A DNA stretch of 34,001 nt, taken from positions 1-34,001 of the IMG/VR virus record IMGVR_UViG_3300031841_001540; one strand, written 5' to 3'. Positions within the stretch are counted from its first letter, which is position 1; the number at the start of each line of letters is the position of its first letter. Position numbers and translations under genes: made by a program. Of the stretch, positions 8,202-34,001 are shown one piece after another. The notes beneath the pieces are model-generated. The model was not told the origin of the DNA. It did not search any database and was given only the letters and a program-made list of their open reading frames with translations. Origin of the DNA: a virus.

Positions 8202-8936
8202 TTACATAAATTCTTTCATATAATCTCTTGTCTCGTCTTTACATACAAGCCAAAAAACTAGTAAATACCTGTCTCCACTTTTAACAGGCAGTCCTCTATG
8301 CATGTGAGTTAGGCTTGGAAATATTAAAGCATTGCCTGTAGGCAAAGGCTCAACAATCCCTTTACGCATAAACTCAGTACCACCGCCTTCATAATCTCCT
8401 GTATTCAGGGGTACTACTATACTTATATCGGAACTAGCATCGTGATGCCATGCTCCTTGTTTTTTATCTCTTAAATTGTAATTAGCTATCTGTATGTTAC
8501 CACCTGTAACACATCTATTCCAAATACTGAGTAATATTGGATTGATAACCCTGTCAACCACTTGCATAAGCGAATGATATAGCTGTGGACACTTTTCATA
8601 CAAAACAATCTCTGGTATTTGTCTTAACTCGTCTTCCTCTTGATTTGGCTCAAAAGCAAATTGTTTGGTCATGTTGTGCATTTCATCAATCAACAAGGTA
8701 CAAAACTCTTGTGAAAATAAAGGTACTGTATGCACATCCTTTAATGGTTCTTTGATGATGTCATTTAAAGGAAGGTTATCTAGTGAATCTAGCTGTTCAT
8801 TATAAAAGTCACCTAAGATAGGTAATGTTTCTTTAGTTTTAGCTAGTGTTTTTTTTTCTACAAACCAATCTGAAGCAAAGCCAAGTAAAAGATTTTTAAG
8901 CTCATACTCTTGCTTAGCCTTGGTTTGTGCCAACAT
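8202..8936 (-). CDS. 2-oxoglutarate/Fe(II)-dependent oxygenase (prolyl hydroxylase-like)
   Basis: A 244-residue protein whose C-terminal half is a double-stranded beta-helix oxygenase. The iron ligands are visible as H164-x-D166 in AWHHDASSD and distal H213 in HMHRGLPV, and R223 in SGDRYLLVFW is the expected 2-oxoglutarate anchor. GGGTEF (184-189) between them is typical of the prolyl 4-hydroxylase-like group. All four cofactor residues are intact, so it should be active. The gene sits inside the tail/virion block, so a virion protein or host surface/translation protein could be the substrate; this is inference. The N-terminal 70 residues are not recognised. Confidence 0.85.
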   Translation of the reverse strand: MLAQTKAKQEYELKNLLLGFASDWFVEKKTLAKTKETLPILGDFYNEQLDSLDNLPLNDIIKEPLKDVHTVPLFSQEFCTLLIDEMHNMTKQFAFEPNQEEDELRQIPEIVLYEKCPQLYHSLMQVVDRVINPILLSIWNRCVTGGNIQIANYNLRDKKQGAWHHDASSDISIVVPLNTGDYEGGGTEFMRKGIVEPLPTGNALIFPSLTHMHRGLPVKSGDRYLLVFWLVCKDETRDYMKEFM

Positions 8937-20614: not shown

Positions 20615-21058
20615 TTATACTGAAACAATGTCATCAGGGTCTAAAATTGTGGCTATGACTTCGTCATCATTAATAATTCTGACTTCGCTTTCATCAGCCA
20701 ACCTAAACCTAGAGCCTGCATATCTACCTATTAATATCCACTGTCCTTTTTCACACCAAGGCTTTACAAACCTTTTTGTGTCTTTATAACAATCAGGACC
20801 CATGGCTACTACATAAGCAACAACAGTCGCTAGGGTTTCTCTATCTATGGTTTCCTTAACCAATTGAATACCGCCTTCTGATACGCCTTTACCTTTATAA
20901 GGTAATACCAAAAGTCGCCACCCGGTAGGTTGAGGCATCCTTTCAAGAACACTTTTATCTAATAGGGTGGGGTCTAAAACTCTGTTGTCCTCTTCAACAA
21001 AAGCTTTATCAAGGTTAATAGTGTCTTCATTAACCTCAGTTTTTACATCACTACTCAT
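20615..21058 (-). CDS. GroES-like co-chaperonin-fold protein (147 aa)
   Basis: A 147-residue protein whose last 100 residues follow the Cpn10 pattern: QPTGWRLLVLPYKGKGVSEG then GIQLVKET, VVAMGPDCYKD, KGQWILIGRYAGSRF and EVRIINDDEVIATI. The mobile loop region (KGKGVSEGGIQL) and the conserved VxxxGP turn are recognisable. The N-terminal 40 residues are an added acidic leader. The start at 21058 is chosen because AAGGAG lies 6 bases before it; a longer form from 21076 is possible. By analogy with T4 gp31 it may cap host GroEL to fold the capsid protein. Location between portal and scaffold supports that. Confidence 0.75.
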   Translation of the reverse strand: MSSDVKTEVNEDTINLDKAFVEEDNRVLDPTLLDKSVLERMPQPTGWRLLVLPYKGKGVSEGGIQLVKETIDRETLATVVAYVVAMGPDCYKDTKRFVKPWCEKGQWILIGRYAGSRFRLADESEVRIINDDEVIATILDPDDIVSV

Positions 21059-21248
21059 CAAAATCTCCTTTTTCATGTAAGTGTTCTTTTATCTTATCAT
21101 GAATATAGGATAATGCAGATATTTCACCCATTAAAAATTGGTATTTCTCCATATCTTTGATGCCACCTGACATCAAGATATCCTTAATTTGCTCCTCTCT
21201 TTCGTTTAAACTTTTACGGAGAGCATGAATTAAATCATACTTATCCAT
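21051..21248 (-). CDS. Small helical hypothetical protein (65 aa)
   Basis: A 65-residue protein of two predicted helices (DLIHALRKSLNEREEQIKD and KYQFLMGEISALSYIHDKIK) joined by a Gly turn. It overlaps the GroES-like gene by 8 bases. The paired-helix shape resembles small phage assembly factors, but I do not recognise a specific family. It lies in the head cluster and is likely transcribed with it. Confidence 0.65.
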   Translation of the reverse strand: MDKYDLIHALRKSLNEREEQIKDILMSGGIKDMEKYQFLMGEISALSYIHDKIKEHLHEKGDFDE

Positions 21249-26146: not shown

Positions 26147-26623
26147 TTAGACTTTACCCCATTCTTTACCTTCAAACAACAAAGCTTCAGCGTTTCTTCT
26201 TTTTATAAGCCCATCATTAGGCACACCACCAACCTTGTTCCAGCGTTTGATTTGGTTTGGTATATCATTCCACATTTTCATGTTAAGCCTTTTTAATAAA
26301 GTGCTTGCAGCTAGATTTGACGGGCCTAAATTAAACACCCATGATACCAATGCATCAAATTCGTTTTGTTTTAATTCTGGCTCGACCATGTCATTAATAT
26401 AGCCTTCATACTCATGTAGCTCGTGTGCTAATAAATCTTCAGCATCTTGTTTGCTTATCTTCATACCATCTTCTACAGGAGTTCCATCTATAAGTTTTAG
26501 GGAGCCATAGCCTATTGTGGCTTTATTTGCAGCACAACGATAACTTACTACGTTGCCGTCTGCATCTGTAGGACAGCCTTCAAAGTGTTTTATTAGTTTT
26601 ATGCCTTCATCAGATATTTTCAT
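26147..26623 (-). CDS. Endolysin, GH24 lysozyme (158 aa)
   Basis: A T4/P22-type muramidase that cuts peptidoglycan. Catalytic Glu15 lies in KHFEGC and Thr36 in ATIGYG; the core NEFDALVSWVFNLG (87-100) and C-terminal RRNAEALLFEG (142-152) are typical. The usual Asp of the Glu-8-Asp-5-Thr triad is replaced by Cys30 (YRC), a variation seen in many phage members, with a six-residue insertion before it. The start at 26623 has AGGAG with a 9-base spacer and follows the spanin stop by one base; a longer frame to 26689 would overlap the spanin gene. There is no signal peptide, so a holin is needed for release. Confidence 0.9.
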   Translation of the reverse strand: MKISDEGIKLIKHFEGCPTDADGNVVSYRCAANKATIGYGSLKLIDGTPVEDGMKISKQDAEDLLAHELHEYEGYINDMVEPELKQNEFDALVSWVFNLGPSNLAASTLLKRLNMKMWNDIPNQIKRWNKVGGVPNDGLIKRRNAEALLFEGKEWGKV

Positions 26624-26624
26624 T

Positions 26625-26999
26625 TTACTCGTCTCCTTTTTGTGGTTCTGTGACTTTTTTATAATACACAACAACTTCTTTAAGCTCATTTATATACCTC
26701 TTTAACTCTTGCATGTTATAAGCCATTAGTTCGTAATCAGGAACTGACATGGCAAAAAACACTACTTGTCCGTGTTCTTTTTCTACTCTTTGTAAAAATT
26801 CTTCTATGTTTTTTTCTGATACGACATACCAATATGGGTCTTTTAGGTCTATTTCCCTAGGCATTACAGGCTGCACTATGGTTCTCTCCATAGGCTTTGC
26901 TGTTACTTCTATTTGTTTAGTTGGTAGCAGACTGCAACTGCAAGCCATCATCAAGACTGTCAATGTTGCGGCTATCTTCTTCAATACTATCGAATACAT
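26625..26999 (-). CDS. Outer-membrane spanin candidate (lipoprotein, 124 aa)
   Basis: A 124-residue protein with a short basic N-terminus, a hydrophobic segment and LMMACSC (residues 16-22), a usable lipoprotein box with Cys20. A proline-rich stretch follows (PMERTIVQPVMPREIDLKDP), then YWYVVSEKNIEEFLQ and YELMAYNMQELKRYINELK. Its start lies inside the 3' end of the inner-membrane spanin gene in another frame (83-base overlap), the hallmark of Rz/Rz1 pairs. It would link the outer membrane to the coiled coil of its partner and fuse membranes at lysis. It is longer than classical Rz1. Confidence 0.65.
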   Translation of the reverse strand: MYSIVLKKIAATLTVLMMACSCSLLPTKQIEVTAKPMERTIVQPVMPREIDLKDPYWYVVSEKNIEEFLQRVEKEHGQVVFFAMSVPDYELMAYNMQELKRYINELKEVVVYYKKVTEPQKGDE

Positions 27000-27312
27000 C
27001 TTTCGTTCCTTTATTTACTCTTGGTTCTATCAAACCGGGCTTAGCTGCTGCTAGTTTGCTTAGATTGTGTCTTTTAAAAATATCAAGATACCTAGACATT
27101 TCTTTTTGTATTTCTTGGTTTCTGTTTTGTAATTCTAAAAGACTTGTGGTTTGTAGTTGAAAATCGTTTTGTAAACTTTGTATGGCTTCTTCTTGTGTTG
27201 CTACCGCACCTTCTAGTGCAAGATTGTTTGCTGTGAGGGTTTTATTTTGATTGTATAAAAATATTGTAATCAAAGACATTACAGCAATAATGCCTATTAG
27301 TATTTTGCTCAT
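26917..27312 (-). CDS. Inner-membrane spanin, Rz-like (131 aa)
   Basis: A 131-residue type II membrane protein: an N-terminal membrane segment (ILIGIIAVMSLITIFLY, residues 4-20) followed by a long coiled coil rich in Gln/Asn/Leu (residues 25-75). The block KAAAKPGLIEPRVNKGT-like, here KLAAAKPGLIEPRVNKGTKD, and VFDSIEEDSRN are typical of Rz-like proteins of marine phages. The 3' end encodes the start of the outer spanin in another frame. The start overlaps the holin stop as ATGA. It disrupts the outer membrane after peptidoglycan is cut. Confidence 0.8.
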   Translation of the reverse strand: MSKILIGIIAVMSLITIFLYNQNKTLTANNLALEGAVATQEEAIQSLQNDFQLQTTSLLELQNRNQEIQKEMSRYLDIFKRHNLSKLAAAKPGLIEPRVNKGTKDVFDSIEEDSRNIDSLDDGLQLQSATN

Positions 27313-27491
27313 ACAAACCTAGACAAAACCACAGAAAGCAAGATAAACGGATATACAGCCCATATCATGTTTTCAAGCTTATCAAAACGCTTTGAGCCGT
27401 CTTCAAGTCTTCTTTCAATGTTTTCATATCTAATCGTACACTCTCTTTCGTGTGCTTCTATTTTGGTTATTGCTTCTTTTGTTGTTGCCAT
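27309..27491 (-). CDS. Probable holin, single C-terminal membrane segment (60 aa)
   Basis: A 60-residue protein with a charged N-terminal helix (EAITKIEAHERECTIRYENI) and a single C-terminal hydrophobic segment (NMIWAVYPFILLSVVLSRFV). It lies between the cyclase and the spanins and overlaps the inner spanin start by 4 bases. Small phage proteins with this charged-helix-plus-one-membrane-span layout are often annotated holin-like. Size, position and membrane segment support this, but one span is also compatible with an antiholin or membrane anchor. Confidence 0.55.
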   Translation of the reverse strand: MATTKEAITKIEAHERECTIRYENIERRLEDGSKRFDKLENMIWAVYPFILLSVVLSRFV

Positions 27492-27496
27492 ATATT

Positions 27497-29263
27497 TTAT
27501 AAATGTTTTGTATAGATTTTTAATGGTTTTGCTTTTCCTTTAACCTTGATAGATTCTAACACTTTTAATTTGTAACCACAAAACTTTTCTGTTTCTTCGC
27601 CTATTAAAATATCTACATTTCTTTCTTTTGTAGCTGATTCTAGTCTTGCAGCTGTATTTACAGCATCGCCTATAGCAGAATAATCAAATCGTGTATCACT
27701 ACCCATGTTACCAACTATTGCATCTCCAGTATTTAATCCTAAGCCTATTGCTACAGGTGGCAAGCCTTCTGCTACCAATTCATCGCTTACTTTTTTAACA
27801 TTTTCTATAATTTCTAATGCACACTCGTATGCTATTTGTTCGTGATGTTTTACATCTAAAGGTGCGTTCCAGATGTACATGCCTGCATCACCGATAAATT
27901 TGTCAATGCAACCATTGTATTTTTGCACTGCTTCAACCTGTGCTGTTAGAACTCTATTCATAATATAAGTTACTTTTTCAGGCTCTACAGACTCACTCAA
28001 GGCTGTGAAGCCACGCAAGTCTGTAAACATAAAAGTGCATCTTCTTTTCTCTCCACCAAGTTTTAAGAGTTCAGGATTTTTTTGTAATTGTTTTACTTGT
28101 CTTGGGTCAAGGTAATGCTCAAACTGTTTTTTTATTTGTTGTCTTAGTTTGTATTGTTCTCTAAATCTAAGGTAAAAACCTATAGACCCGGTGATAAATT
28201 GTGATACTAAAGACCAAGTTACATCTATTAATATACCTGCTTGTATTGCGTAATAGCCACCTAAAGCCGTAGAAAGCATTATTGCTAATGCCAATGCAAC
28301 TCCTAGGGTTATACCAAAATATGCAATTACGAGCCATATAAGGGTTACTGATGTGATAAAAATTAACATTTCAGCAGCTATAGACCACTCAGGTATCATA
28401 GGAGAGTCTTGTATTAGTATTGATTCTGCTAACGCTGCTTGTATCTTATGTGGCTCTAACAAGCCTACAGGCGTGGCTACTTGTGGCATTACACCGTTTG
28501 CAGTGACACCAATAATTACAAACTTACCTGCTACGTTCATTTCGTCTAATGTTGTTGTAGGTGTATTAACCCAACTAATCCATTTGCGACCAAAGTTGTC
28601 TGTTTTTACAGGCGGTAAATGTCTTACTGCAATTTCCTGTATGCCGTTTGCATTGGTGGTAATTATGTACGACCTAGTGCCTGTAAGTGCTTTTAATATT
28701 TCTGTGCCAAAGCTAGGTGTCCAACCGTCAGGTGTTTTCATTAGTAAAGGTATGCGTCTTACTAGATTATCTACATCAACAGGTGCTGTGGCGATACCTT
28801 GAAAGCTTTTTTGTTTTAACACATCTATGTTTTCAACTACGCCTGCTGTTGGTATGCCACCAACCTCATCGCCTTTTATTACGGTGCCAACTGTTTTTGG
28901 ATATTGACCGTTAGGTGTTTCAAACATTGCTAGTACGCTTGGTAAATAACCAAGTGTTTGTGCAAAAGCATCATCGCCACCAAACCTATCAGCTTCTGAA
29001 AATGATAATGCCCACCCAATACCTATAGCACCTTCGTTAATAAGGTCTATTTGTATTTGTGCTAAATCTCTTCTAGGAAAGGGAAAACCACCGCGTTTCC
29101 TTACGTCTTCTTCTGTGATATTTAAAATAACAAAATTACCGCTTGGTTCTTGTTCTTTGACTAAAGCATCAAATGTTTTGAGTTTTAGTATTTCTGTAGG
29201 TACTGACTGAAACACTAACGGTAGAGCTAGTATTATCAGTATTAGTAATATTAACTTCTTCAT
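27497..29263 (-). CDS. CHASE2-domain class III adenylate/guanylate cyclase (588 aa)
   Basis: An inner-membrane signalling enzyme. Residues 5-20 form a membrane segment; 25-285 form a CHASE2 sensor domain facing the periplasm, with FVILNITEEDVRKRGGFPFP and FVIIGVTANG then PHKIQAALAESIL as marks; three membrane spans follow (about 293-365), then a charged linker and the catalytic domain (405-588). Metal-binding Asp415 (FTDLRGFT) and Asp459 (FIGDA), Lys455, and Asn536/Arg540 (VNTAARLE) are all present. Ser529 replaces the Asp/Thr that, with Lys455, reads adenine, so ATP preference is likely but not certain. The catalytic set looks active. The start overlaps the methyltransferase stop as ATGA. 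Confidence 0.92.
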   Translation of the reverse strand: MKKLILLILIILALPLVFQSVPTEILKLKTFDALVKEQEPSGNFVILNITEEDVRKRGGFPFPRRDLAQIQIDLINEGAIGIGWALSFSEADRFGGDDAFAQTLGYLPSVLAMFETPNGQYPKTVGTVIKGDEVGGIPTAGVVENIDVLKQKSFQGIATAPVDVDNLVRRIPLLMKTPDGWTPSFGTEILKALTGTRSYIITTNANGIQEIAVRHLPPVKTDNFGRKWISWVNTPTTTLDEMNVAGKFVIIGVTANGVMPQVATPVGLLEPHKIQAALAESILIQDSPMIPEWSIAAEMLIFITSVTLIWLVIAYFGITLGVALALAIMLSTALGGYYAIQAGILIDVTWSLVSQFITGSIGFYLRFREQYKLRQQIKKQFEHYLDPRQVKQLQKNPELLKLGGEKRRCTFMFTDLRGFTALSESVEPEKVTYIMNRVLTAQVEAVQKYNGCIDKFIGDAGMYIWNAPLDVKHHEQIAYECALEIIENVKKVSDELVAEGLPPVAIGLGLNTGDAIVGNMGSDTRFDYSAIGDAVNTAARLESATKERNVDILIGEETEKFCGYKLKVLESIKVKGKAKPLKIYTKHL

Positions 29264-30891
29264 TCCATGTTTTTAAATATATGGCATATAACATCTACCG
29301 TCCAACCATTGCCTAGCATTTTATATCTTTGTGTATTGGACACATGATTGGTGTAATTATCTGGAACTGTCTGTAGTCGTTCACATTCCAAGGGTGTAAG
29401 CTTACGCCATGTTAGGTCTTCGCTTGCAACAACACTATCTTTACCAACAGTAGTTATAGCGTTTGATTTATTGTCTTTTCGTAACTCAAGCATTTGTTTG
29501 GTTTTATTGGCTACAGAACTACCGTCTCTATCTATGCGTTTGCCGTCTTTATCATAAGCTCTGCCACGAAAAGCACCACCTGTCACAACCTTAGGCTCAT
29601 TGTTACCACCACTACAAGCTGTTACTGTAGGCGATTTGCCATCAGGACTATAGACTCGTTTGAGTATGTCATGTCCGTTTATATCAACAGCTATGCCTAC
29701 TTGTTTGGGTTTGGTTTCTATGTATTGGTCTTTATTAGATGCTGTTAACGTAGGTGACTTACCTTCTTCACTATATACTCTTTGTTTGCTTTCATACACA
29801 CCGTCACGATACTCAAACTCCATAATCTGTGCATCAAATATATCTGTGTTCAGACCTAAAACTTCTTTTAGCTTGAACCAAATATCATCACTTGGTATAG
29901 CAAAACTGTTGTCGTTTCTAAACCAATGCTCTACCTTGGTAACAGGCGTGTTGGTTTCTTCAGCTATTTGTTTGTTGGTTTTGCCACTGTTGGTTTTCAT
30001 GGTTCGTAAAAGCCATTTAAGGCTTTCAACATGAACTTCGTGTTTCCTTACCTTTACCTGTTCTACATTCATGCCAACTTTAATTGGTCTTGTAGCTACA
30101 TTTGTTCTATCAGCAAATGAAGCTGTAAGGCTGTGACTTTTGCCGTCCTCGTGAAAAACTCTATCTTGTATATATGGTTGTTTACCACTAGCTTTTTTAC
30201 TTGGGTTTACTTGTATAGGTTTGTTGACAGGAACCATAGTCCTTTGTCTTTTTTCTATACTGTTCCATGGCACAGCACCTGTATAACTTGCGGTCAAGCA
30301 ATGTGCTTTACCCTCTTTGCTTGTCATTTTATCCAAGTTGTTATCAACTTCTGTTTCTAGTATGTCTCGCAAGACTATACCTTTGTCTTCAGGTTGTTGT
30401 ATGTTTGGTATGTTAGTCCAATAATATCTTTGCCTTGATTGGGCTGAAAGAAGCGAACTGTTTATAAAAATGGGTTCAATACCAAAGGGTATTTCAGGAT
30501 AGCAGTCAGACACTTGTTCTGATATAACTTGCAAGAACTCTTTTTTCATTCTTACGTTTTCAAGCAAGAAATACTTTGGTTTTATTTCTTTGAGCAACCG
30601 AATAAACTCAAAAAACAAAGCACTTCTTGGGTCATCAAAAGCAAGTTGTTTGCCTGCAAAACTAAATCCCTGACATGGACTGCCTGCAAGCATGAGGTCT
30701 ACATCCATATAGTCTTTAGGGTCTAGGTCGCAAATATCACCGACCTGAATGATATCAGGATAATTTGCTTGGCTTACTTGAATAGCATATTTGTCTATCT
30801 CACTTGCATAATACTTTTCTACAGGTATGCCTAATCGGTCTAATGCAATACGACCACAACTCATACCATCAAATAAACTTAAAACTTTCAT
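29260..30891 (-). CDS. Orphan C5-cytosine DNA methyltransferase with inserted HTH domain (543 aa)
   Basis: Methylates cytosine in DNA. Motif I LFDGMSCG (6-13), catalytic Cys73 in GSPCQGFSFAG, ENV (111-113), QSRQRYY (151-157), a motif IX-like WRKLTPLECERLQTVP (495-510) and motif X MLGNGW (525-530) are all seen. The recognition region is long: five variants of a GKS-x-TLTAS unit (about 194, 250, 377, 418 and 475), and a helix-turn-helix insert at 286-350 (KTNKQIAEETNTPVTKVEHW). No restriction partner is encoded, so it probably protects phage DNA. A promoter and an AAGGAG sequence precede it, separating it from the FecR gene. Confidence 0.92.
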   Translation of the reverse strand: MKVLSLFDGMSCGRIALDRLGIPVEKYYASEIDKYAIQVSQANYPDIIQVGDICDLDPKDYMDVDLMLAGSPCQGFSFAGKQLAFDDPRSALFFEFIRLLKEIKPKYFLLENVRMKKEFLQVISEQVSDCYPEIPFGIEPIFINSSLLSAQSRQRYYWTNIPNIQQPEDKGIVLRDILETEVDNNLDKMTSKEGKAHCLTASYTGAVPWNSIEKRQRTMVPVNKPIQVNPSKKASGKQPYIQDRVFHEDGKSHSLTASFADRTNVATRPIKVGMNVEQVKVRKHEVHVESLKWLLRTMKTNSGKTNKQIAEETNTPVTKVEHWFRNDNSFAIPSDDIWFKLKEVLGLNTDIFDAQIMEFEYRDGVYESKQRVYSEEGKSPTLTASNKDQYIETKPKQVGIAVDINGHDILKRVYSPDGKSPTVTACSGGNNEPKVVTGGAFRGRAYDKDGKRIDRDGSSVANKTKQMLELRKDNKSNAITTVGKDSVVASEDLTWRKLTPLECERLQTVPDNYTNHVSNTQRYKMLGNGWTVDVICHIFKNME

Positions 30892-30949: not shown

Positions 30950-32047
30950 TTAATTGCTTTGCGTAATTCTAATAACACTGCCTTCTCCACCGTTTATAGT
31001 AACAACATTAGATATGCCGTCTTGTATAAATATAACTGTATAACTTGCTGCACCGTTTATATCTACCCTTGCTGTACTTTGCACACTTCTTAGCAGTGTT
31101 AAAACTTCACCTGTATAAAAAGAAGTAATTTGTGTATCTAAGTCTTGACCTAGCTTAGTACCTTTGATGTTTGTAGTAATTCCGTCTTGTGCTAGTGCAT
31201 CTTCTTCTTTAACAACCTCTAAAGCATCAATGACATCAAGCAAATCTTCTAAAAAATTTACATCAAGATAATTAATATCTAGTTCTGTAAATTCTAATTC
31301 ATCTTCTTTTAAAAAATCTTCTTCTAAATAATCTATATCCAAGTCGTCAAAGTCTAAGATATTTTTCTTCTGTGCAACAACTTCTTCGCTTTCAATTATT
31401 TCTTCATCAGGAGGGTTTACAATTAACATGTTGTCAATTAACTCTAAGGATAAATCCAAAATTACAGGTTTGCTTGGTGCCTTCTCAAAAACATCTACTG
31501 TAGTTGCTTGAAAAGGTTTGTTTAATAAAACGCTGCCTGTTGCTGTAATAACTTCTATTTCACCGCTTGATATGCCGTATTTGTCTGGTAGCAGTATGAC
31601 TAGTGTTCTACCGATTTCATCAATTGTGGTTGTAAAATCTGTGCCACGAATTGCTATGTTTGCGGTGGGTGTTTTAAGTTTTATATTTTGTTTATCTATC
31701 CTATTTAGGTTTCCGGTAATAAATCTTGCTGTACCAAGACTAAAGGTTAGAGCCATTTTTGATTTAGATGGGTCAGGGTCGTAGATATATTCGTCTATAA
31801 GAAGTTCTGAATGTTCAGTTAGTTTTACAGTTGAGTCGTCAAGAAAGGTAATAGCCATGCGGCCATTAGTTGTAACGGCTTCATCATTACTTTGTATGCC
31901 AAGATTTAACTCGGCTTGTAATGGTTCATCTCTTAATATTCGTGCAACACCATTTAGTTCTGATATATCACCTATATCAGCAACCTGTTGTTGTTCCCCC
32001 ATCATTTTGAGTGATACAAATATTAGAGTTAGAAGTAGTGCTTTCAA
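30950..32047 (-). CDS. Secreted FecR-domain protein with acidic repeats (365 aa)
   Basis: A likely periplasmic or exported protein. A short hydrophobic signal (residues 2-13) is followed by a FecR domain at 30-140: VARILRDEPLQAELNLG, NGRMAITFLDDSTVKLTEHS and NIKLKTPTANIAIRGTDFTT. Then come two 20-residue acidic repeats (231-250 and 251-270; LDFDDLDIDYLEED-type) and a beta-rich C-terminus (YTVIFIQDGISNVVTING). The first in-frame start is TTG at 32047, just after a stop codon, and it overlaps the curlin-like gene by 71 bases; internal ATGs would lose the signal. FecR normally relays outer signals to inner-membrane partners; a CHASE2 cyclase is encoded two genes on. Confidence 0.85.
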   Translation of the reverse strand: MKALLLTLIFVSLKMMGEQQQVADIGDISELNGVARILRDEPLQAELNLGIQSNDEAVTTNGRMAITFLDDSTVKLTEHSELLIDEYIYDPDPSKSKMALTFSLGTARFITGNLNRIDKQNIKLKTPTANIAIRGTDFTTTIDEIGRTLVILLPDKYGISSGEIEVITATGSVLLNKPFQATTVDVFEKAPSKPVILDLSLELIDNMLIVNPPDEEIIESEEVVAQKKNILDFDDLDIDYLEEDFLKEDELEFTELDINYLDVNFLEDLLDVIDALEVVKEEDALAQDGITTNIKGTKLGQDLDTQITSFYTGEVLTLLRSVQSTARVDINGAASYTVIFIQDGISNVVTINGGEGSVIRITQSN

Positions 32048-32702
32048 TTTTTAACCAATCCCTTGCAAGTGTTGATGATTGTATGATGTTAAATGTGTTA
32101 CTACTGCCATCTAAATCCATATAAAAATATGCTGAATCAGACGATGTAGTACCTGCATAACCACTTCCAGTAAAGTTTAACGTGTTAGAGCTGCCATTTA
32201 TATCTACAAAATTTATAGCATTAGCATAATCAATATCAATATCAAATACGTTAGAGCCACCTAAAATAGTGTAATCTAAATCAAGATAAGATGAGTCTGC
32301 ATCTTCAGCTATTTTAATGTCAAATTCGTTACTGCTACCTGTAACATCAATCATTAAATTCACATAATCTGCACTAATTAGTCCTGTGCTGTTTAGCAAA
32401 ATATCCATAATATTGCTATCACCATCAAACTCAAAAAATCCAGTAAAGTTATCGCCGTCAATAGCATCTGACCTAAATATGTTACTAGCACCTATTTGGT
32501 TTATATCAAGTGTCATTGAGACACCATCAAGGTCAAGTGCGGTCATAGTCCCAGATATTGCAGAGGTACCACCAATAAGGTTTGAGCTGCCCAGTTGTTC
32601 TATGTCTATAGATGCAGAATTACCGCTTTGGTCTACATAGATTTCGTTATCTGCTAATGCTAATACAGAAACAAACAAGGCTAGATTAATTATTTTCTTC
32701 AT
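31977..32702 (-). CDS. Secreted curlin-like repeat protein (241 aa)
   Basis: A probable substrate of the phage CsgG channel. A signal peptide (residues 1-17, ending ALA) is followed by IYVDQSGNSASIDIEQLGSS, continuing to Asn41, which matches the CsgA/CsgB repeat pattern with Gln, Gly and Asn at the right places, and LDINQIGASNIF. At least six further units of a looser hydrophobic-x-hydrophobic-x-GSSN-x-F-x-I type follow, spaced 22-33 residues (Asn at 41, 74, 97, 125, 151, 173, 202, 227). It is very acidic and ends in Cys. A beta-solenoid or amyloid fibre fold is expected. It overlaps csgG by 17 bases. Confidence 0.75.
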   Translation of the reverse strand: MKKIINLALFVSVLALADNEIYVDQSGNSASIDIEQLGSSNLIGGTSAISGTMTALDLDGVSMTLDINQIGASNIFRSDAIDGDNFTGFFEFDGDSNIMDILLNSTGLISADYVNLMIDVTGSSNEFDIKIAEDADSSYLDLDYTILGGSNVFDIDIDYANAINFVDINGSSNTLNFTGSGYAGTTSSDSAYFYMDLDGSSNTFNIIQSSTLARDWLKIESTTSNSNICITQNDGGTTTGC

Positions 32703-33504
32703 ATTTCCAATACCCTTTATCGTAACCGATAATAATAAGTTCTAATACAGCACCTTCTATAGCTTTCATTAAAGCTATTGTGGTGCTTTCGTTTCGTGAA
32801 ACACCAAATTCTACTTCTACCAACTCTGTTCCCATTTCTATAAATTTAAACAAGTCTTGAGACTGTCCGTAGCTTAGTATTGTTTTACTTGACAAAACTT
32901 CTACTAAAATTTCACCTGTGGCAACAGAAACCATCCTTAGGCTGACAGTAATTGTATCTTCACGATATTGTACGCTTGACCCAATGCCTAGGTATCTTGC
33001 ACCTGCACCACCTGTTATTAAGTTACTATCATACGACACAACAGCACCTTCGAGCAACACGCCTGCAAAGAGCAAGGGCATAATAGTTTTTTTATCTTCT
33101 AATTCTTCTCTAGTGCTACGAATTATCTGTCTTTCTTTTACAAGATTATCAAGACCGACCCTCTCAACCACTCTAAAAAAATTGCCGTTGCTTGCATGTT
33201 TTAAGGCTCGTATAAGTAAATTGCTTGGTGCTTGAGTAAGGGCTGTAGAGAACAAAGCAAACTCGCTATTACTTTTACGCTGCCCTGTTTGGTCTGTAAA
33301 TGCAGTAGGATAGACAGCTACTACAGGCATAGTTTTTGGAGGCGTAATATTTAGAAGCTCTTGCGATTGTAACGAATAAATACTAGGCTTGTCTTTGTTT
33401 TTGTGTTCGTATCTTATTTGTTTCGTGTCTTGTATGACACTATTGATAGAACAGCTAGAAAGTAAAAGAACCAATAGGTAAGGTAATTTCTGTAATATTG
33501 CCAT
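32686..33504 (-). CDS. csgG: CsgG, curli outer-membrane secretion channel
   Basis: A lipoprotein that should form the nonameric outer-membrane curli pore. Numbered from the first ATG at 33510 (ATG at 33504 is M3 and equally possible), the signal peptide ends in LLLSSC with Cys20 for lipidation. Conserved CsgG blocks are clear: DQTGQRK (73-79), FSTALTQ (87-93), FRVVERVGLDNLVKERQIIR (112-131), VVSYDSNLITGGAGARYLGI (157-176), SLRMVSVATGEIL (190-202) and SSKTILSY (207-214). Length (274) is close to E. coli CsgG (277). The constriction loop differs: Phe87 is kept but the neighbouring Asn and the Tyr appear replaced. It overlaps csgF. Confidence 0.95.
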   Translation of the reverse strand: MAILQKLPYLLVLLLSSCSINSVIQDTKQIRYEHKNKDKPSIYSLQSQELLNITPPKTMPVVAVYPTAFTDQTGQRKSNSEFALFSTALTQAPSNLLIRALKHASNGNFFRVVERVGLDNLVKERQIIRSTREELEDKKTIMPLLFAGVLLEGAVVSYDSNLITGGAGARYLGIGSSVQYREDTITVSLRMVSVATGEILVEVLSSKTILSYGQSQDLFKFIEMGTELVEVEFGVSRNESTTIALMKAIEGAVLELIIIGYDKGYWKYEENN

Positions 33505-33967
33505 CTGCATCAGTTATTTTAAGTGTAATAAATTGTCCATCAGATGTATATTCTATAGTATTACCTTCAAGTTCTATAGTGCCTTCGGTTTGTGGAGTTT
33601 CACCAAAAAGATTATCTACTAGCTGTCGCGATAGCTGTGCGTAAATTCTTGACTCTAAATTTTTAAGAAACCTTGCAAGTGTGGTATTTTCTTTATCTCT
33701 TTCTATTTGTTCCTGTAAAGCTTTTAATTCTTCTTTTATAGTCATCTTTCTTGTGTGCTGTTGGTTTTCAATAGTCAGATAATGTGAACTTGTATTGATA
33801 CCACTAAAAGATGGTGATTTGAATTTATGAACTATTTGGTCGGCTTTGATGTTTTGCACGAAAACACCAATAATTAAAATTATGCCAATGAGCATTATTG
33901 ACCATAGCAATTTATCTTTTTCAAGCTGTTCTTTTTCTAATTGTTTTTTAGTCTTTCCTTTGGTCAT
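33455..33967 (-). CDS. csgF: CsgF, curli assembly factor
   Basis: Partner of CsgG. Numbered from the ATG at 33967: a long charged N-region (Lys/Glu, residues 1-20), a hydrophobic segment (21-39) and likely cleavage after NIKA, giving mature DQIVHKFKSPSFSG. This matches the E. coli CsgF N-terminus that inserts in the CsgG pore (F-x-x-P-x-F-x-G). The C-terminal FLKNLESRIYAQLSRQLVDN and the beta domain with TIEYTSDGQFITLKITDADG also match. The track frame extends to a TTG at 33985 but the ATG is preferred. Residues 75-95 form a charged helical insert. It overlaps csgG by about 50 bases. Confidence 0.88.
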   Translation of the reverse strand: MTKGKTKKQLEKEQLEKDKLLWSIMLIGIILIIGVFVQNIKADQIVHKFKSPSFSGINTSSHYLTIENQQHTRKMTIKEELKALQEQIERDKENTTLARFLKNLESRIYAQLSRQLVDNLFGETPQTEGTIELEGNTIEYTSDGQFITLKITDADGNITEITLPIGSFTF

Positions 33968-34001
33968 CTCTATCCGCCTTAGCAATTTTATTGCTATCTA
34001 T
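33948..34001 (-). CDS. C-terminal end of an upstream gene (partial)
   Basis: The minus strand enters the window in an open frame that reads IDSNKIAKADRDDQRKD and stops at TAA 33948-33950, overlapping the start of csgF by 20 bases. The overlap fits the style of this cassette, so a real upstream gene is likely. Seventeen residues are too few to identify it; a CsgE or other curli gene cannot be tested from here. Confidence 0.4.
   Translation of the reverse strand: MDSNKIAKADRDDQRKD

Follow-up and report, generated by a model that had tools for sequence, protein, structure and literature searches.

A curli-type (type VIII) secretion module with FecR-domain and adenylate cyclase genes in a podophage fragment, its relatives in Caulobacterales and a probable role in fibre export

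Curli genes carried by phages have been described in several publications and sequence records. Zaragoza-Solas et al. (2020) named the curli cluster and wrote of 'sibling capture', and Wittmers et al. (2022; PMC9599517) reported the arrangement histidine kinase (HK)-CsgF-CsgG-CsgA/B-FecR-(CsgA/B)-adenylate cyclase (AC) in HTVC023P-type podophages and pelagimyophages, with expression of the module in metatranscriptomes. The record of phage HTVC008M (KC465899) annotates CsgF, CsgG, a 'curlin-associated protein' (curlin/CsgB) and a cyclase in the same order, and the record of phage Melnitz (MZ577097) also annotates the FecR protein. A lysis role for phage curli genes was proposed by Buchholz et al. 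(2022; PMC9004378), and the two roles suggested in an initial annotation of the DNA analysed here, a fibre for aggregation or superinfection block and a CsgG pore for lysis, are both already in print. Here, we analyse the curli module of a 34,001-nucleotide stretch of viral DNA (IMG/VR record IMGVR_UViG_3300031841_001540, positions 1 to 34,001), referred to as the window, a 34 kb fragment of an HTVC023P-like podophage whose terminase is 55–59% identical to those of HTVC027P, HTVC023P and 023Pt_psg01. We interpret the locus, with moderate confidence, as a phage-borne type VIII (curli) module whose most likely role is the export of a fibre late in infection. The csg cassette highlighted in the initial annotation is part of a larger unit that includes fecR and the cyclase gene. 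This system is already published, and the expectation that a linked curlin and sensor genes would go beyond earlier work is not sustained, since both appear in Wittmers et al. (2022; PMC9599517) and in the HTVC008M record.

The module occupies one end of the window on the minus strand, in the order csgF, csgG, a curlin-type gene, fecR, a C5-cytosine methyltransferase gene and a CHASE2 adenylate cyclase gene, and is followed downstream of the cyclase by genes for Rz-like spanins, endolysin, terminase and virion proteins. Its proteins were compared with relatives from two IMG/VR scans (over a hundred loci) and from named phage records. CsgF (33455..33967; the open reading frame runs from TTG 33985, ATG 33967 being the likelier start) matches PF10614 at E=2e-18, carries a hydrophobic N-terminal segment followed by the motif H-x-F-x-S-P-x-F-S-G, and aligns with the CsgF proteins of HTVC008M and Melnitz at 43–45%. 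The outer-membrane lipoprotein pore CsgG (32686..33510) matches PF03783 at E=5.7e-48, its Cys20 is invariant in 25 relatives, and a profile built from 25 relatives finds the E. coli CsgG structures in the PDB at E=1.4e-95. A CsgG-family pore lipoprotein and an adjacent CsgF, two of the marks of type VIII secretion, are both present by sequence, and the initial identification of these two proteins is borne out, as are the overlaps (56 bp between csgF and csgG, 17 bp between csgG and the curlin gene) and the common direction of csgF, csgG and the curlin gene with the lysis and virion genes.

The third gene (31977..32702, minus strand) encodes a predicted secreted protein of 241 residues, a candidate CsgG substrate with a hydrophobic N-terminus resembling a Sec signal. 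In a tblastn search it is 37% identical (E=3e-14) to the HTVC008M gene annotated as 'curlin-associated protein'. The curlin family PF07012 is matched by 15 of 27 relatives (best E=8.6e-6) and, at best with E=5.2e-8, by the second curlins found in some related loci. Six G-x-x-N turns between residues 38 and 170 are invariant across 25 relatives, mostly without the flanking Gln found in canonical repeats. The AlphaFold2 (AF2) model is all-beta (predicted local distance difference test score, pLDDT, 76; predicted template modelling score, pTM, 0.74), and its best matches in BFVD are named 'Curlin associated' (E=5.9e-6 and 9.3e-5); for two of the structure predictions, the input was limited to sequences of the window and IMG/VR. 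Taken together, sequence and model point to a curlin-related protein and candidate fibre subunit, in line with the linked curlin-like substrate that had been suggested initially.

The module is conserved as a unit and is shared by podophages and myophages that infect streamlined marine bacteria. Among 112 csgG-bearing sequences, csgF is found in 108, the curlin in 111, fecR in 108 and the cyclase in 101; the gene order is constant, and most losses are contig ends. Co-conservation of the repeat protein with csgFG, on which the initial annotation had made its substrate idea depend, is therefore observed. The same order recurs in 80 further myophage-type loci, in most cases with another curlin gene ahead of the cyclase; of the 19 that have room, all contain the curlin and fecR and 18 contain the cyclase. 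Median ratios of nonsynonymous to synonymous substitution rates (dN/dS) are 0.13 for the curlin, 0.15 for csgG, 0.15 for fecR, 0.21 for csgF and 0.25 for the cyclase, placing all five genes, judged from their sequences, under purifying selection. A chimeric origin of the contig, which would have undone the cassette, was ruled out by near-identical arrangements on the separate contigs L005, L085 and L086. Like the window, the module of Wittmers et al. has the same gene order, lacks CsgE, CsgC and CsgD and belongs to the same phage type by terminase; in contrast to it, the window has a methyltransferase gene inserted between fecR and the cyclase gene and no second curlin. HTVC008M and Melnitz, which are T4-like myophages with the module between DNA-metabolism and tail genes, have homologues of all the module genes in unchanged order, with proteins 30–48% identical, and a second curlin between fecR and the cyclase. 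The second curlin of HTVC008M carries a PA14 domain, and this adhesin domain was detected in four of the 18 second curlins from loci of the myophage type, an observation that is new and that favours a fibre over a pore. With the E. coli system csgBAC-csgDEFG the window has the CsgG and CsgF families in common, together with putative curlin-type repeats, whereas CsgE, CsgC and CsgD are missing and fecR and the cyclase gene are added.

As had been noted initially, sensor genes are also present. The FecR-domain protein (30950..32047, minus strand; PF04773, E=5.7e-10; phrog_37870, E=5e-69) consists of an N-terminal hydrophobic segment, the FecR domain (about residues 24–175), an acidic part predicted to be disordered (178–290) and a C-terminal beta domain that ends in a curlin-like strand (IRITQSN). 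Its AF2 model is of moderate quality (pLDDT 64); fold searches with it return 4m0h (E=1.2e-3), the periplasmic portion of regulators of the FecR type, and 5ix9 (E=0.014; 61 columns, root-mean-square deviation 1.1), a domain that anchors proteins at the cell surface. Wittmers et al. (PMC9599517) read FecR as an iron regulator. The ferric-citrate regulator FecR is characterised by an anti-sigma region at its cytoplasmic N-terminus and by a sigma factor of the FecI type; in contrast, the FecR domain of the window protein starts shortly after the N-terminal hydrophobic segment and no anti-sigma part is present, and sigma-70 region 2 was found in none of seven csg-bearing podophage contigs, which are possibly incomplete. 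The CHASE2-domain membrane adenylate cyclase (27497..29263, minus strand; PF05226, E=3.8e-28; PF00211, E=6e-18) has the residue set of class III adenylate cyclases, namely two metal-binding Asp, the Lys/Asp adenine pair and the Asn/Arg transition-state pair (D415, K455, D459, D533, N536, R540). These metal-binding, adenine-binding and transition-state residues are kept in 80–84 of 84 relatives, and the enzyme is predicted to be catalytically intact. In the Melnitz cyclase (L003:11583-13634), the transition-state Asn is replaced by Ser (VSTAAR), and activity may be lost or changed. The C5-cytosine DNA methyltransferase encoded between the two sensor genes (29260..30891, minus strand; 543 residues; PF00145, E=4.6e-51) is found at this position only in the window, L005, L085 and L086 and is an interloper in the module. 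It has conserved N- and C-terminal blocks with a long middle region between them.

The curlin-like strand at the end of FecR is a recurrent feature: the pattern is shown by all 90 podophage-type proteins and by 38 of the 39 of myophage type, counts that come from related phage sequences and are not independent, and by about 2% of shuffled tails. Among Caulobacterales proteins it was recognised by eye in both Caulobacteraceae tails and not in the Hyphomonas protein (L115), and it occurs in none of 15 FecR proteins that an order-wide search found on short stretches devoid of csg genes. A true curlin repeat was rejected: comparison of FecR and curlin profiles gave 1.7% probability, and no FecR member matches PF07012. 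The likeness, as far as the sequences go, appears limited to the short end motif, with homology lacking profile support. One may speculate that the FecR protein both tethers and senses the fibre, with its domain in the periplasm, the acidic disordered part of about 110 residues threaded through the CsgG pore, the beta domain, with its curlin-like final strand, joined to the fibre and the CHASE2 cyclase reporting fibre export or the state of the envelope as cyclic AMP. We think this arrangement unlikely; if true, phages and some Caulobacterales would possess, as a single unit, a device that couples signalling to the fibre.

The initial annotation had recorded CsgE, CsgC and CsgB as not seen in the window, which is confirmed, and had looked to the DNA upstream of base 34001 for CsgE. 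This candidate position was ruled out, as it is occupied by a gene for a transmembrane (TM)/coiled-coil protein, of which the window holds the last 17 codons, IDSNKIAKADRDDQRKD, and the stop (33948..34001, minus strand), the remainder lying beyond the window. A full-length homologue with an identical end is encoded at L005:1457-1807. The proteins of this head gene (phrog_18771; 80–117 residues) combine a single hydrophobic stretch at the N-terminus with a coiled coil; the gene precedes csgF in 91 viral loci and is present in two copies in 26. Matches to phrog_18771, a family of unknown function, reach E=7e-41, and those to the holin family phrog_4898 are weak (1e-4 to 0.15). From position and copy number we infer that it is the gene called HK by Wittmers et al. 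In the relatives tested, however, this upstream 'histidine kinase' shows no kinase domain, a search of nine phage genomes with csg genes, among them HTVC008M and Melnitz, yielding neither HATPase_c nor HisKA matches. The mismatch may be one of labelling, and the comparison left out the nine genomes of Wittmers et al. themselves. Two published labels, histidine kinase and iron regulator, are hence newly called into question.

When about 85,000 species genomes of bacteria and archaea were scanned, two Caulobacteraceae metagenome-assembled genomes (MAGs; L114:7504-13524 and L116:7417-13474) and one Hyphomonas MAG (L115:7399-13422, on a contig of 705 kb) proved to have contigs with the arrangement csgF-csgG-curlin(s)-fecR-cyclase. 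As in the window, csgE is missing from these operons; unlike the window, they lie on cellular contigs, flanked by metabolic and TonB-receptor genes, and all three lack the TM/coiled-coil head gene. Operons of this type are rare, with one in 299 and one in 200 genomes sampled in these orders, and no description of a Caulobacterales operon with fecR and a CHASE2 cyclase was found in the publications consulted. Because the same operon stands on contigs of three Caulobacterales genomes, FecR and the cyclase are not phage additions. That the whole operon, sensor genes included, has a relative in cells is new, and it brings the normal function of the operon within reach of cellular tests. FecR-cyclase pairs without a csg match in the same stretch were also found (L196, L198, L206), in stretches of only about 3.5 kb. 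A viral scan with the Caulobacteraceae CsgG as query gave no matches. In the CsgG tree, phages and Caulobacterales form one group (support 100/98), and in the CsgG, FecR and cyclase trees the podophage, myophage and Caulobacterales copies are separate groups. Contrary to the published picture, the podophage copies never fall inside the myophage copies; the trees do not fix the order in which the three groups join (cyclase, p-AU of the approximately unbiased test 0.05; CsgG, phages together 95/92). Two other contigs, binned as Pelagibacter (L128) and Planctomycetaceae (L117), have curli genes that cluster with those of phages, or have the phage-specific head gene, and are probably misbinned phage contigs. 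The CsgG match in OR851715, an unverified Salmonella phage record of 1.5 kb, was set aside as most likely host DNA, its CsgG being almost the E. coli sequence.

On the reading that we prefer, the module would be expressed late in infection, as the adjoining lysis genes suggest. CsgG would be inserted into the outer membrane of the infected cell as a pore with CsgF on its outer face, and the curlin, exported by Sec, would pass through this pore and form an adhesive fibre on the cell. Export would proceed without CsgE, as in the Caulobacterales operons, and the FecR protein would act in the periplasm, together with the CHASE2 cyclase, as a sensor or anchor of export and not as a ferric-citrate regulator. 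The phage would benefit if the fibre held neighbouring host cells together or screened off competing phages, and phage-supplied surface fibres in hosts without curli genes could alter aggregation, superinfection and gene exchange in very abundant ocean cells. The fibre is supported by the constraint on the curlin, the PA14 domain and the presence of the same operon in cells that do not lyse by it. Several observations weigh against it. No clumping was seen in Melnitz-infected OM43 cells (Buchholz et al., PMC9004378), and at E<=1 no CsgE turned up in the 12 genomes or records searched, those of Caulobacterales among them, with a positive E. coli control. The window curlin itself matches PF07012 at E=0.013, under the curated cut-off. 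Of the beta-solenoid that the initial annotation had required for its substrate idea, the all-beta character is predicted and a confident match to any solved solenoid is missing: the curlin model finds nothing in the PDB below E=0.001, with just weak beta-helix matches, and does not recover a CsgA structure. Also, a site beside the lysis genes would allow little time for building a fibre.

This last position keeps another explanation alive, in which CsgG, or CsgG with CsgF, is an outer-membrane pore without a gate, which would time or assist lysis by depolarising or weakening the envelope. The podophage module lies inside the lysis region: in 52 of the 64 loci that extend far enough, Rz or endolysin genes follow downstream of the cyclase within 2.5 kb. 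No CsgE gate gene is present, and the small head gene bears a weak resemblance to holins (phrog_4898, E as low as 1e-4). Such a pore is the main rival of the fibre, but we consider it rather improbable: the curlin equals csgG in strictness of conservation and is under the strongest constraint among the five genes, the annotated gene lists around the module in HTVC008M and Melnitz contain no lysis genes, and a phage-lysis role makes no sense for the Caulobacterales operons, given their non-phage context. The pore has alternatively been viewed as a route for the uptake of macromolecules, cofactors or siderophores into a nutrient-poor infected cell (Zaragoza-Solas et al., 2020; Wittmers et al., 2022). 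A pore free of CsgE would indeed be open, and the interpretation of FecR as an iron regulator would fit, but uptake leaves the conservation of the curlin unexplained and conflicts with the missing anti-sigma part and sigma-70 region 2, and we judge it very unlikely. That hosts such as Pelagibacter have no curli genes (PMC9599517) might suggest that the module is functionless cargo from a past transfer; this is hardly credible, because dN/dS values of 0.13–0.25 in five genes, the intact cyclase site and a gene order conserved in two phage types contradict it.

The adjoining lysis genes (26147..27491, minus strand) form the context of the module and lie outside it. Directly after the cyclase gene follow genes for a coiled-coil/TM protein of 60 residues (27309-27491), an Rz-like protein (26917-27312), a second Rz-like protein (26625-26999) and an endolysin (26147-26689). 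The 60-residue protein, a coiled coil with a C-terminal hydrophobic segment, resembles XhlA-type holin partners by eye and has no Pfam match. Further into the window, a GroES-like co-chaperonin is encoded among the head genes (20615-21076; phrog_3188, E=5e-15), and a 2-oxoglutarate-Fe(II) oxygenase-like protein (8202-8936; phrog_61) and a small class I methyltransferase (735-1304) are encoded among the structural genes.

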